This document shows, piece after piece, positions 6,935 through 13,663 of a stretch of 23,114 nt of DNA (positions within the stretch are counted from its first letter, which is position 1; the number at the start of each line of letters is the position of its first letter). A model generated the notes under the pieces. It did no database searches. It had not been told where the DNA came from and saw only the letters and a list, made by a program, of their open reading frames with translations. This stretch comes from a virus, in IMG/VR virus record IMGVR_UViG_3300026518_000061, positions 1 to 23,114 of that record; one strand, written 5' to 3'. Made by a program: the position numbers and the translations under genes.

Positions 6935-6972
6935 GTTTAGAGACCGTCAAATCACACACCACACTGTAACGA

Positions 6973-7010
6973 AGACCCTTTCTCACACTCTCCTGAGAAA
7001 GGGTCTTTTT
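6973..7010 (+). terminator. Strong intrinsic terminator after the scaffold gene
   Basis: A perfect 13-bp stem, AGACCCTTTCTCA with TGAGAAAGGGTCT, has an 8-nt loop and is followed by TTTT on the plus strand. It is the only textbook terminator seen in the window. On the minus strand the stem is preceded by A residues, but no T-run follows it, so it works mainly rightward. Confidence 0.85.
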
Positions 7011-7015
7011 AATGT

Positions 7016-7044
7016 TTGACATGCTTTCAGAACTACCGTAGTAT
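7016..7044 (+). promoter_or_regulatory. Promoter for the capsid transcription unit
   Basis: TTGACA (7016-7021, consensus), a 17-nt spacer, then TAGTAT (7039-7044, 4 of 6). It begins 6 nt after the terminator and lies about 200 nt before the capsid start codon. Confidence 0.6.
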
Positions 7045-7058
7045 TTATTCACGACTTT

Positions 7059-7128
7059 CTTGGATGAGTAAAGTCGGGCACGGGTTGGATGACCCATTAA
7101 TCGATAGCGCTTTGACGGTTGGATGACC
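7059..7128 (+). repeat. Three TTGGATGA repeats in the capsid leader
   Basis: TTGGATGA occurs at 7060-7067, 7085-7092 and 7119-7126. The last two are part of an identical 12-mer, GGTTGGATGACC (7083-7094 and 7117-7128). They fall in the transcribed leader if the promoter at 7016 is used, so they could act in RNA or as DNA sites. Confidence 0.65.
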
Positions 7129-7244: not shown

Positions 7245-8465
7245 ATGAAAACATCTAATTTCTCGTTCAGTTCTGGTAAAGCTCCTTACATTTTGAGCGG
7301 CGCTTATCCGAACGACAACACTCTAACAGGTCTTATTCCTGATCTCTATGCTGGTCTTGACGTAGTTTCTCGTGAACTTGTAGGTATGATTCCTTCAGTA
7401 TCTCGTAACTCAGGCGCAGAACGTGCAGCAGTTGGTCAAAGCGTTGTGTATGATATAGCTCCAGAGATGGCTGCTTCTGACATTACACCGTCTATGACAA
7501 AGCCAACACCAACAAACCGTACAGCTGGTACAGGTAGCATGACAATCTCTAAATCACGTAAGGTCGAGTTCGGCTTCACTGGTGAAGAGCAACGCGGTCT
7601 TAATCACGGACCTGGTTATCTATCAGTTCAAGCAAGCTGGTTTGCTCAAGCTCTTCGTACTCTTACAAATGAGATTGAAAGCGATCTATGTACAGAAGGT
7701 TACAACCACGCAACACGTGCTTACGGTACTGCTGGTACAACTCCTTTTGCTACAACTCTAGGCGCTTCTGCTCAGACACGTAAGATCTTGGATGACAACG
7801 GCGCACCTGGTTCTGGTCGTTCGCTTGTTATCGACACCTCAGCTGGTGCAAACCTACGTACATTGCAGAACCTAACTCGTGTAAACGAAGCAGGTACTTC
7901 AATGACATTGCGTCAAGGTGAGCTTTTAGACATCCACGGTTTCTCAATCAAGGAATCAGCTCAGATCGTAAATCACACTGCAGGTACAGGTGCTTCAGCT
8001 ACAACTGACGCTTCTGGTTACGCTGAAGGTGCTACGTCAATTACTCTAGCTTCTGCTGGTACTGGTACAATCCTCGCAGGTGACTACATCACTTTTGCAG
8101 GTGACGATAACAAGTATCTAGTGTTGACTGGTGATGCTGACGTTTCTGGTGGTGGTACAATCACTATCGAAGCGCCTGGTCTTCGTCAAGCAATTCCAGC
8201 GTCTGCAACAGCGATCACAGTTATTGGTGACTCTACTCGCAGTCTTGCATTCAGCTCTAACGCTATCCAGCTTGTTACACGTGCTCCAGCTCTTCCGCAG
8301 GAAGGTGACGATGCATTAGATAGCATGATGATTGTTGACCCTCGTTCTGGTCTTACATTCGAGATCCGAGTGTATGCTGGTTATCGTATGGTCTACATGG
8401 AAGTAGCTTTGGCTTGGGGCTTTGAAGCCGTTAAGCCTGAACATATCGCAGCTCTACTGGGTTAA
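7245..8465 (+). CDS. Major capsid protein (P22 coat-like)
   Basis: A 406-residue protein, the expected size and place for the shell subunit. The overall layout and the C-terminal segment (…IRVYAGYRMVYMEVALAWGF, then EAVKPEHIAALLG) resemble P22 gp5-type coat proteins, which have an HK97 fold. Residues about 242-328 are a Thr/Gly/Ala-rich beta insertion (ATSITLASAGTGTILAGDYI and on) like the telokin-like I-domain of P22 coat. The start chosen is the ATG at 7245, with AAAAAAGG eight bases upstream. The frame is open back to a TTG at 7119, but that part lies in the repeat-bearing leader and lacks an SD. It has its own promoter and terminator-bounded leader, fitting the need for hundreds of copies. 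P22 membership is by recalled pattern. Confidence 0.85.
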   Translation: MKTSNFSFSSGKAPYILSGAYPNDNTLTGLIPDLYAGLDVVSRELVGMIPSVSRNSGAERAAVGQSVVYDIAPEMAASDITPSMTKPTPTNRTAGTGSMTISKSRKVEFGFTGEEQRGLNHGPGYLSVQASWFAQALRTLTNEIESDLCTEGYNHATRAYGTAGTTPFATTLGASAQTRKILDDNGAPGSGRSLVIDTSAGANLRTLQNLTRVNEAGTSMTLRQGELLDIHGFSIKESAQIVNHTAGTGASATTDASGYAEGATSITLASAGTGTILAGDYITFAGDDNKYLVLTGDADVSGGGTITIEAPGLRQAIPASATAITVIGDSTRSLAFSSNAIQLVTRAPALPQEGDDALDSMMIVDPRSGLTFEIRVYAGYRMVYMEVALAWGFEAVKPEHIAALLG

Positions 8466-8848: not shown

Positions 8849-9229
8849 ATGGCTCGACTACCGACTGTACAGATCAAGACAGAAAATGGAGCGGTAACAA
8901 TCAACGTTGCTGACTACGACCCTAACAAACATCAAATCATTGGCGCACCTGTAGAGGTCGAAGAGAAAGTAGAGATTGACGAGCTTTACTTTGATGCAAT
9001 GACCGTTCAAGAACTTAAAGATTTCGCAGAAAAACATGAAATCGAATTAACAAGAGCTAAGAAAAAAGGTGAGATCATCGGTGTGATTTCGGCTGCTCTT
9101 CTTGCTCTTGAGCTTACAATCGAAGAGAAGGAAGATAAGTTCCTGATCGTTCTTGGTGAGACTTTAATCATCGAACAACCTTTCGACACAAAGGAAGAAG
9201 CAGAAGCGTTCCTAGAAAGCCTTAAGTAA
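8849..9229 (+). CDS. HeH/LEM-like domain protein of the head module
   Basis: A 126-residue acidic protein. Residues about 49-84 (DAMTVQELKDFAEKHEIELT, then RAKKKGEIIGVI) match the short helix-extended-helix (HeH, LEM/SAP-like) motif found in many phage structural-region proteins and thought to contact DNA or other proteins. A second alpha/beta part follows (DKFLIVLGETLIIEQPFDTK). The SD is GAAGGAAAAGAT. The stop overlaps the start of the connector gene (TAATG), so it is co-translated with neck proteins. The exact role is unknown; a head accessory or completion factor is inferred. Confidence 0.75.
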   Translation: MARLPTVQIKTENGAVTINVADYDPNKHQIIGAPVEVEEKVEIDELYFDAMTVQELKDFAEKHEIELTRAKKKGEIIGVISAALLALELTIEEKEDKFLIVLGETLIIEQPFDTKEEAEAFLESLK

Positions 9230-11115: not shown

Positions 11116-11540
11116 TGGATGATTTTGTAACGCAAATAGATAAGATAGTCGTTAACACTGAAGCTCGACTACTGGCGGTTGCTCGAAGCGCCATTAGAGA
11201 CGTAGTGAACGACACTCAGAAGCTGAAAACAGACGGAGGTAGAATGCCAGTCCGTACTGGTTTCCTATGGTCTTCTGGTGGTTCTTCTCTGAACTCTATG
11301 CCAGTCGGTGCTGTGAAAGGTGATAAGACAGCTTCTTACAACTGGGTTAACTCTACATTTGAACTCGATCTGGCTAAAATGAAGTTGGGTGATGTTTTCT
11401 ACTGGGGTTGGACGGCGGTTTACGCAAACATGCAAAACACGAGAAACGGTTTCTTAGAGTTCGGAACTGACAAGTGGGAGAAGTACGTTAATAAAGCCGT
11501 ACAATATTGGAGAGATAAGGACGCTAGAAATGCAGAATAG
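11115..11540 (+). CDS. HK97 gp10-like neck/tail-completion protein
   Basis: A 141-residue protein of the HK97 gp10 family. The signature is clear: MPVRTGFLWSSGGSS near residues 43-57, VYANMQNTRNGFLEFG near 100-115, and a C-terminal helix (DKWEKYVNKAVQYWRD). The ATG at 11115 is chosen over the TTG one codon earlier: GGAG lies 7 nt upstream and the ATG overlaps the previous TGA. It sits at the head-tail interface or tail end and helps attachment of the tail. It overlaps the next gene by 11 nt. Confidence 0.85.
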   Translation: MDDFVTQIDKIVVNTEARLLAVARSAIRDVVNDTQKLKTDGGRMPVRTGFLWSSGGSSLNSMPVGAVKGDKTASYNWVNSTFELDLAKMKLGDVFYWGWTAVYANMQNTRNGFLEFGTDKWEKYVNKAVQYWRDKDARNAE

Positions 11541-11952
11541 ATACATACTTGAAGCCTTGCAGAAAGGTGTCATAGCAGCGGTTGCAGCATCGACAACGGA
11601 TGACCTAACCATAAAGATGACAGGGAGAACCATTAACCCTCCGTCAAGCGGTAAATGGCTTGAGCTGATACATCTTCCTAACGATGAAGACAGAACGTGG
11701 GGTGATGAGAAACTATACAACGGTCGCTTGAGATTGATTCTCCACTGGCCTGTAGATGATCGTGGAAGTTATGAAGCTATAGAGTTGATGGAAAGTATTT
11801 TAGGGTATTTCAGCAAGGGGTCTTCCCATGCTGACGAAGGTGAGAACGTTTCCGTACGGATCATCGAGAACCCTTCTTATTTAGGTCATGAAGAAACAGC
11901 CCCTGAACAACTCTTCATGTATTCGGTACGTTATCAATATTACGATAAATGA
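11530..11952 (+). CDS. Tail terminator protein (DUF4128/GpU-like)
   Basis: A 140-residue protein with an N-terminal helix (YILEALQKGVIAAVAAST), then beta strands including GRLRLILHWPVDDRGSYEAI, and a C-terminal YSVRYQYYDK, the layout of tail terminators that cap the tail tube and dock it to the head. The gene order (gp10-like, terminator, then major tail protein) is the normal one except for the gene inserted after it. The start lies inside the preceding gene with AAGGA eight bases upstream. No gene follows for 85 nt. Confidence 0.72.
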   Translation: MQNRYILEALQKGVIAAVAASTTDDLTIKMTGRTINPPSSGKWLELIHLPNDEDRTWGDEKLYNGRLRLILHWPVDDRGSYEAIELMESILGYFSKGSSHADEGENVSVRIIENPSYLGHEETAPEQLFMYSVRYQYYDK

Positions 11953-11977
11953 TAATTTTTTCAACAAATTAAAAGTT

Positions 11978-12006
11978 TTGACACTCGTTGAAATCTACTG
12001 TACTGT
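11978..12006 (+). promoter_or_regulatory. Candidate promoter for the HTH gene in the tail region
   Basis: TTGACA (11978-11983, consensus), a 17-nt spacer, then TACTGT (12001-12006, 3 of 6). It falls in the 85-nt gap before the HTH gene. The near-palindrome GGTTTTCAAACC (12008-12019) lies just after the -10, around the expected start of transcription, as an operator would. Confidence 0.45.
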
Positions 12007-12037
12007 TGGTTTTCAAACCTTACAGAAAGGACGGACA

Positions 12038-12796
12038 ATGAGCAAACCGAACCCGTTAGAAAAATTCATTGCTGGAGGTGTTAGTTGGGACAAAGAAGGT
12101 TATAAAGGTGGTTTCTTGTCCTCCTACCATCTTTATAACGACTTCCATGTTGAACCGCATGAAATACATCATTTTATCGAAAATACGCGCTACGTTCTTC
12201 TTGGGGTGTGTGATCTTCAAAACGGTGAAGAAACAATGGTGTACGGCCTTAAAGGTCAAACCATCGGAGATTTCTTACTTCTTAATGACGGTGAGGAGTA
12301 CATGGTGATTGAAGCGGTTTGCGAGAAACTGAGCGTCTGTAAAACGACAGTTTATCGATGGTTGAAAGATGACGTAAACTTCCCTAAACCTTGCAAAAAA
12401 GGTAAGAGAAAAGTATGGAAGAAAGCTGACATAGAAGCATGGATTTCTCTCGACAACGATCCAAATTCAGCAATAAAGAAAGCTTTGTTGACAAGCGCGA
12501 ACATGACATCAAGCAATCCAAAAAAGATAAGATGTATAGTCGTTGACGACGATGGAAACTATGAGGTGTTTCTTGAGGACGGTTTGCTTTCTGTCTTCTT
12601 AAACGAGACTTCTCAGAAAACAACTGTCTCGGATATGCTTTCTTTCCTCTTCGAAACTGAACCTGAAGTCCACGAAATGATTGTTGCAAACAGATCGCGT
12701 CAAGCTAACGAGATTGTCAACAAGGTTAGAGCGTTTCTCACTAGTTCTGGGAGATTAAAGCAAGAAGAGAAGATTGAAGCTGTACCGACACAATAA
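12038..12796 (+). CDS. AlpA/MerR-type HTH protein inserted in the tail module
   Basis: A 252-residue protein. Residues about 87-136 (EEYMVIEAVCEKLSVCKTTV, then YRWLKDDVNFPKPCKKGKRK, then VWKKADIEAWI) form an AlpA/excisionase-like winged HTH: helix-turn-helix, the FPKP turn, basic wing, and a final DIEAWI helix. The N-terminal 86 residues and the C-terminal 115 are not recognised; the latter has an acidic, beta-like part and a helical end. The ATG at 12038 has AGAAAGGACGGACA upstream. An in-frame start at 11888 would lie inside the tail terminator gene and is rejected. Small AlpA proteins have about 70 residues, so this one carries extra domains. A late-gene regulator or an acquired cargo gene are both possible; a DNA-binding virion protein is less likely. 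Confidence 0.8.
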   Translation: MSKPNPLEKFIAGGVSWDKEGYKGGFLSSYHLYNDFHVEPHEIHHFIENTRYVLLGVCDLQNGEETMVYGLKGQTIGDFLLLNDGEEYMVIEAVCEKLSVCKTTVYRWLKDDVNFPKPCKKGKRKVWKKADIEAWISLDNDPNSAIKKALLTSANMTSSNPKKIRCIVVDDDGNYEVFLEDGLLSVFLNETSQKTTVSDMLSFLFETEPEVHEMIVANRSRQANEIVNKVRAFLTSSGRLKQEEKIEAVPTQ

Positions 12797-12801
12797 ACAG
12801 C

Positions 12802-12831
12802 TTGACCCGCTATAGCTTCCTAAGTTATCCT
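12802..12831 (+). promoter_or_regulatory. Candidate promoter for the major tail protein
   Basis: TTGACC (12802-12807, 5 of 6), an 18-nt spacer, then TATCCT (12826-12831, 4 of 6), 41 nt before the major tail ATG. The spacer holds the palindrome GCTATAGC. With the capsid promoter it would give separate control of the two most abundant virion proteins. Confidence 0.45.
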
Positions 12832-12871
12832 TTGTCTTGTGAAATTATAACTCCTTATGAGGTAGCGAACC

Positions 12872-13663
12872 ATGTTAAAACTCTTGAACCTTTTATCTTT
12901 GACAGCTCACGCAAACGCTAACGCTGCTTCTAAAATTTACGTTTGCGGTACAGCGCAAAACTCCGAACTTGCTCAAGTCGATTACGAAGGGCTTACATGG
13001 GTTGAGATCGGTGGTGTAGGTTCTCGTGGTGAACAAGGTAAGATTACAAACGTTCTTACATATGATACATGGAACGACACAGTTGTTCAAAAAGCTAAAG
13101 GTATGACTGACGCTGGTTCGGTTGATCTTGAAGTTGCTCGTGACCCGACTGACGCTGGTCAGATCATTCTACGTGCAGGAGCTGCAGTAGGTAACAACGA
13201 AAACTACGCCTTTAAAGAAGTTCGCGCAGACGGTACAAACGGCAATACAGGGACAGTGATTTACAACCGTGGTCTTGTTGCTGGTCTTCGTCGCCCTGGT
13301 GGTCGAAATGAAGACTTCGATCTTGAAGTTTACACTCTTGCTTTCCAACAGGAAGAAATCGTAGTTAATCCTTTAGATGGTGGTAACGCTCCTGTTAATA
13401 CGGTAGTTCCAGCAATCACAGGTACAGCTCAAGTTGGTGAAACACTTACTTCAGACACTGGTACATTTACAGGTGACGCTACAATTACCTATGAATATCA
13501 ATGGTATCGTGGTGGTTCGGCAATCTCAGGCGCTACATCATCTACATATGATCTTGTAGCTGCTGACGAAGGTTACATCATCACAGTCCGTGTAAGCGCG
13601 TCAAACGACGCTGGTTCAGCTTTCGCATTCTCTGCAGCTACTTCAGCTGTAGCGGCTGCATAA
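12872..13663 (+). CDS. Major tail (tube) protein with Ig-like C-terminal domain
   Basis: A 263-residue protein. Residues about 20-165 have the tail-tube pattern (GLTWVEIGGVGSRGEQGKIT; KAKGMTDAGSVDLEVARDPT; RGLVAGLRRPGGRNEDFDLE). Residues about 174-263 are a bacterial Ig-like domain (GTAQVGETLTSDTGTFTGDA; YQWYRGGSAISGATSSTYDL), which would project from the tube surface. The ATG has GAGGT eight bases upstream. The N-terminus MLKLLNLLSLTAHANANAAS is odd for a cytoplasmic tube subunit: hydrophobic, then Ala-rich, like a signal peptide, although it may only be a helix or arm. It makes the polymerised tail tube; copy number should be high, in keeping with its own promoter. Confidence 0.85.
   Translation: MLKLLNLLSLTAHANANAASKIYVCGTAQNSELAQVDYEGLTWVEIGGVGSRGEQGKITNVLTYDTWNDTVVQKAKGMTDAGSVDLEVARDPTDAGQIILRAGAAVGNNENYAFKEVRADGTNGNTGTVIYNRGLVAGLRRPGGRNEDFDLEVYTLAFQQEEIVVNPLDGGNAPVNTVVPAITGTAQVGETLTSDTGTFTGDATITYEYQWYRGGSAISGATSSTYDLVAADEGYIITVRVSASNDAGSAFAFSAATSAVAAA

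Follow-up and report, generated by a model that had tools for sequence, protein, structure and literature searches.

AlpA-family regulators occur as accessory genes and can act on the element that carries them, on a helper phage or on the host (PMC11773190). The protein described here shares with this family (PF05930/HTH_17 PF12728; e.g. AlpA of Gram-negative PICIs, PMC11773190) a winged helix that scores above curated cut-offs and a mobile-element setting. However, AlpA proteins measure roughly 60–90 residues, whereas the present protein has 252, with the domain in the centre and long unmatched ends. Its gene is flanked by tail genes inside a tail operon, without an adjoining integrase, rather than lying in an integration or control region. 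Paracoccus phage Pkon1, in which Arc-like, Arc and KilA-N genes lie 5' of the tape measure gene, offers a second comparison. In both cases DNA-binding accessory genes sit in the tail region and the phages have a related head morphogenesis gene, but the families and the junction differ, and Pkon1 has several genes there, on opposite strands.

The window, by which we mean the whole stretch of DNA analysed, is a virus contig of 23,114 bases with small and large terminase, portal, scaffold, capsid, connector and tail genes (Table 1). Integrase families gave no match among the window proteins scanned, which were a subset of the ORFs of this 23-kb record.

The extra gene and its winged helix

The first-pass annotation had placed an extra gene between the tail terminator gene and the gene for the major tail (tube) protein (MTP), and the profile matches of both neighbours (phrog_179 and phrog_158) bear this out. 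Its ORF opens with the ATG at 12038 and closes with a stop ending at 12796. At the composition of the window, an open stretch of 252 codons has a chance of p ∼ 2e-7 per start. The codon usage of the frame (+0.154) agrees with that of the rest of the window genes, the alternative frames give negative scores, and a ribosome-binding site read from the sequence lies 6 nt 5' of the ATG. Together with the curated domain match, length, codon usage and ribosome-binding site confirm that the predicted ORF is real.

The AlpA-like winged helix-turn-helix proposed at residues ∼ 87–136 was upheld by two Pfam families. HTH_17 (PF12728) matched residues 91–136 with E = 3e-7, passing the gathering cut-off, and Phage_AlpA (PF05930) matched residues 92–136 with E = 3.5e-6 (27.2 bits against a cut-off of 21). 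Regulator and excisionase families matched the helix, whereas the small terminase families gave weak matches (E 0.03–0.17). The remaining ∼ 200 residues had been described as matching nothing recognizable; consistent with this, profile searches of residues 1–86 and 137–252 gave no convincing family match. Homologues of the whole protein and of both flanks were sought in viral contigs, genome contigs, phages, plasmids and 538 alphaproteobacterial genomes, and every match either lay within the helix or was centred on it. Since there is no full-length homologue in the collections searched, the function of the protein has to be read from one domain.

Several further candidate identities were rejected. 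Matches to the NCBIfam/PADLOC family MAD1 covered the helix alone and fell far under the cut-off, an internal repeat between the N- and C-terminal parts was not significant (p 0.085), and an HNH_3 motif at residues 37–53 was a resemblance by eye, unsupported by any profile. With a threshold of E ≤ 5, neither Pfam nor PHROGs gave a match of the protein to the nuclease families HNH, GIY-YIG, LAGLIDADG, PD-(D/E)XK or endonuclease VII. The predicted structure of the whole protein, made with no relatives for an alignment, was unusable (pLDDT 39.7). A low-confidence model of residues 153–252 (pLDDT 61.8) has the order strand-strand-strand-helix-strand-helix; its best fold matches were mostly RNase H/RuvC-like nucleases, none of them below E = 0.01.

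Two observations concern other proteins of the window. The MTPs of the group either stop after the core (∼ 150–185 aa) or have an extra C-terminal domain (13380–13663 in the window). This domain also occurs in unrelated phage proteins (e.g. of Stenotrophomonas phages, residues 173–241, ∼ 60% identity), as a putative mobile decoration domain. A 126-aa protein encoded 3' of the capsid gene (8849–9229) matches, at residues 30–83, a PHROG labelled endonuclease VII (E = 3e-10); the match need not indicate a nuclease and may come from a small C-terminal domain that both have in common.

Table 1. Features of the window and of related loci (positions without a prefix are those of the window)
Feature	Position	Strand	Evidence or remark
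Terminator-like hairpin and T run, 5' of capsid promoter	6972–7010	+	inverted repeat; 0/200 shuffles as good
Promoter-like TTGACA-17-TAGTAT, 5' of capsid gene	7016–7044	+	10/12; 0/100 shuffles as good
Two-hairpin GGAU leader element, 5' of capsid gene	7050–7101	+	cmsearch 41.1 bits; folds as modelled
Third GGAU hairpin (GGTT-GGAT-GACC)	7106–7128	+	
Tail terminator gene, upstream neighbour	11530–11952	+	phrog_179, E = 1.6e-7
Promoter-like TTGACA-17-TACTGT, 5' of extra gene	11978–12006	+	9/12 match; p ∼ 0.08 for own gap; weak
Ribosome-binding site AAAGGA	12026–12031	+	from sequence
Accessory gene, predicted AlpA-type DNA-binding protein	12038–12796	+	252 aa; N- and C-terminal parts without match
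Winged helix-turn-helix codons (residues 86–137)	12293–12448	+	PF12728, PF05930 above gathering cut-off; phrog_4745, E = 5.5e-9
Candidate MTP promoter TTGACC-18-TATCCT	12802–12831	+	p ∼ 0.03 in own gap; L039 parallel
MTP gene, downstream neighbour	12872–13663	+	phrog_158, E = 1.2e-23
Junction occupant	L084		HNH endonuclease with C-terminal helix-turn-helix
Junction occupant	L105/L106	opposite	endonuclease-VII-like gene
Junction occupant	L041–L044		LtfC-like beta-sandwich protein
Junction occupant	L156		3.5-kb cassette
Junction occupants	L124, L129		small phrog_2101-like ORFs, 71–76 aa
Junction occupants	Xanthomonas and Stenotrophomonas prophages		other small ORFs
Junction occupant	L055		stretch without clear gene
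∼ 70-aa ORFs	L124:4779–4994; L128:4779–4994; L129:4777–5007; L131:4783–4995; L024:5780–5998		mutually similar; phrog_2101 type where significant
AAA ATPase cassettes with ∼ 310–410-aa partner protein	L005:4456–7122; L007:3847–7090; L027:4291–7029; L029:4770–7070; L032:9558–12272		absent from window
Leader copies	L002:7934–7985; L006:3722–3773 and 7911–7961; L033:2560–2612; L034:4065–4116		
Leader copy, Rhizobium phage P106B	L177:1823–1873		

The junction between the tail terminator and MTP genes

A direct search with the MTP found 29 relatives in IMG/VR, and an MTP alignment search gave 80 viral and 43 genome loci. Profiles of the flanking genes gave 150 terminator/MTP pairs whose gap was measured; 114 of these are distinct. 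The gap is at most 150 bp in 94 of the 114; it exceeds 150 bp in 20 pairs, the window included, and 330 bp in 13. The assumption that the MTP gene normally follows the tail terminator gene directly is right for this phage group, and the cultured phages P106B and RHph_X2_24 have no gene at the junction. Among the ORFs of ∼ 150 loci from related phages and prophages there was no relative of the 252-aa protein. The nearest thing was a 77-aa AlpA-like protein on one contig, encoded elsewhere than at the junction. Among these loci the extra gene occurs in the window alone and is absent from the same place in related phages. Since no relative has the protein, the gene is not a conserved late regulator.

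Because the larger gaps have unrelated contents (Table 1), the terminator/MTP junction is a site of repeated insertion, and the window gene is one of its occupants. Two of the other occupants, the free-standing HNH and endonuclease VII-like genes (L084 and L105), share with it the junction and a similar size (194 and 231 aa), but searches of the window protein turned up no nuclease motif. Several rhizobial prophages, and also one viral contig, carry the ∼ 70-aa ORFs at the junction; these are a second occupant, perhaps an older one. Other junctions of the operon are used as well: in many relatives, opposite-strand AAA-ATPase cassettes separate the head morphogenesis genes from the neck genes, and in RHph_X2_24 (L033) the ATPase of this cassette is annotated as an ATPase-domain protein.

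Promoter-like sites around the extra gene

Promoter-like sites had been reported on both flanks of the gene. Both are present, but as sequences they stand only marginally above chance (Table 1). A promoter pattern scan of the region showed no excess of sites (nine, with 10.6 expected by chance). The downstream site gains by comparison, and the upstream one is weaker. In L039 the sequence TTGACA-18-TATCCT occupies the matching place before the MTP gene. Moreover, 11 of 29 phages have a sigma-70-type promoter matching at least 10/12 positions within 160 nt 5' of the MTP start and the three neighbouring genes have none, which makes the candidate MTP promoter plausible. A promoter 5' of the MTP gene is, judging from these sequences, likely to be an old feature, with the extra gene lying upstream of it. 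A comparison of the two flanks with each other and with the capsid promoter region gave no significant common motif, operator or otherwise. An AT-rich inverted repeat at ∼ 11953–11971 reached p 0.01 in one of 27 tests and is not counted as evidence. No transcription terminator was found on the strand of the extra gene between it and the MTP gene.

A leader RNA in the phage group

In many relatives the MTP transcript runs from the promoter straight into hairpins with GGAT loops and differing stems. The leader RNA consists of two hairpins, both with a GGAU tetraloop, together with a GCGC linker and an outer helix GCY:RGC. In an alignment of 11 copies, 8 of 8 pairs change on both sides, and there are 23 double-change cells compared with 6.6 after shuffling (0 of 500 shuffles as high). 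A covariance model search gave 39 copies, every one on the coding strand, and the nearest gene downstream encodes the capsid protein in 19, the MTP in 10 and the scaffold in 10. The alignment of all 39, which was fitted to the covariance model and is hence biased towards it, has 104 double-change cells against 31.9 shuffled, and the outer GCY/RGC helix also covaries. A promoter of at least 10/12 stands upstream of 16 copies (0.7 expected from shuffles), and of the 20 copies that have a site scoring 9/12 or better, 18 show the end of the −10 box 3–7 nt upstream of the element. Since the scaffold-gene copies have no such promoter, the leader element is not merely part of a promoter.

In the window the leader is found at the capsid gene, and none was detected near the MTP gene (∼ 12000–12900), even with filters off. 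The order terminator-like hairpin, promoter, leader is seen 5' of the capsid gene in the window (6972–7044) and 5' of the MTP gene in L002 (7880–7930), which makes the start of each transcription unit look insulated.

Rfam gave no match for the leader in the window and seven relatives, and no published account of such a leader was found in the open literature. In P106B one copy falls beneath a short hypothetical ORF 5' of the coat protein gene, and the annotation of this phage marks no copy as RNA; the leader also occurs in the cultured Salicola phage CGphi29. It may be a cis-regulatory phage RNA so far undescribed, which might control translation or RNA stability or act in put-like antitermination. 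Sites for CsrA/RsmA present GGA in a hairpin loop, within an ANGGAN hexaloop. The tandem hairpins with GGA in the loop are alike, but in the leader the bases on either side of the GGAU pair and covary, which leaves a tetraloop and no ANGGAN hexaloop. The put RNA of HK022 forms two stem-loops close to the 5' end of a phage transcript; the leader has two stem-loops also, although some of its copies, at the scaffold gene, have no adjacent promoter.

Readings of the extra gene

We favour, with modest confidence, a lineage-specific accessory gene at the terminator/MTP junction that is transcribed late and encodes a DNA-binding regulator. The acquired accessory gene had been among the first suggestions for this locus, and it agrees with the lack of the gene in relatives and with the recurrent use of the site. 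Its insertion would have separated the MTP transcription unit from the tail terminator gene upstream. Given its place on the late strand, its own ribosome-binding site and the lack of a terminator 5' of the MTP gene, it is probably transcribed late. Through its central AlpA/HTH_17 winged helix the protein would most likely bind DNA as a transcription regulator, and it would act on its own promoter and/or on another phage or host target. DNA binding is supported by one line of evidence, the domain match, and the regulatory role is likewise inferred.

Since some of the junction inserts are nucleases, the gene could instead be a homing- or transposition-type element that has decayed or that carries an unrecognized nuclease domain. 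The HNH and endonuclease-VII-like genes at the same junction point this way, and the RNase H/RuvC-like fold matches of the C-terminal model provide a lead. However, no part of the protein matches a nuclease family, the fold matches are not significant and homing enzymes are not known to rely routinely on AlpA-type helices for binding DNA. We consider this origin improbable.

A dedicated late-gene regulator, which would bind beside the two candidate promoters and set the amount or timing of MTP in place of the relatives' RNA leader, also appears unlikely. The position of the gene between these promoters, the conserved position of the MTP promoter in relatives and the retention of the leader at the capsid gene but not at the MTP gene are consistent with it. 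However, the flanks have no common operator, either with one another or with the capsid promoter region, most relatives, among them the cultured phages P106B and RHph_X2_24, manage the operon without the gene, and several relatives that have no MTP leader have no such gene either. The original proposal of a regulator acting on the flanking promoters thus found no clear support. The coincidence of the extra gene with a missing MTP leader is suggestive, and one may imagine that the tail gene lost control by its RNA leader and that the newly acquired protein took over the tail promoter, exchanging control at the RNA level for control at the protein level. Because relatives without the gene also lack the MTP leader, the presence of the gene together with the missing leader is no evidence of such an exchange, and we regard it as highly doubtful.

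A structural or assembly protein with an incidental winged helix would suit the position in the tail operon on the same strand, and small terminases do contain a winged helix. It is very unlikely nonetheless, as none of the relatives that share these morphogenesis genes has the protein and its helix matches regulator and excisionase families, with small terminases giving only the weak scores above. That the ORF is no gene at all, to which the lack of homologues over most of its length might point, is extremely improbable in view of its length, codon usage, ribosome-binding site and curated domain match.

Significance

Taken alone, the extra gene is of modest interest, being another late-operon accessory gene, with a DNA-binding domain in an odd, otherwise unmatched protein. 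Its location is informative: the junction is reused for insertions and adjoins the start of a transcription unit. The leader RNA is probably the more important result. It would give a direct handle on how the amounts of the main virion proteins are coordinated in such phages, and P106B and CGphi29 are cultured phages that carry it.
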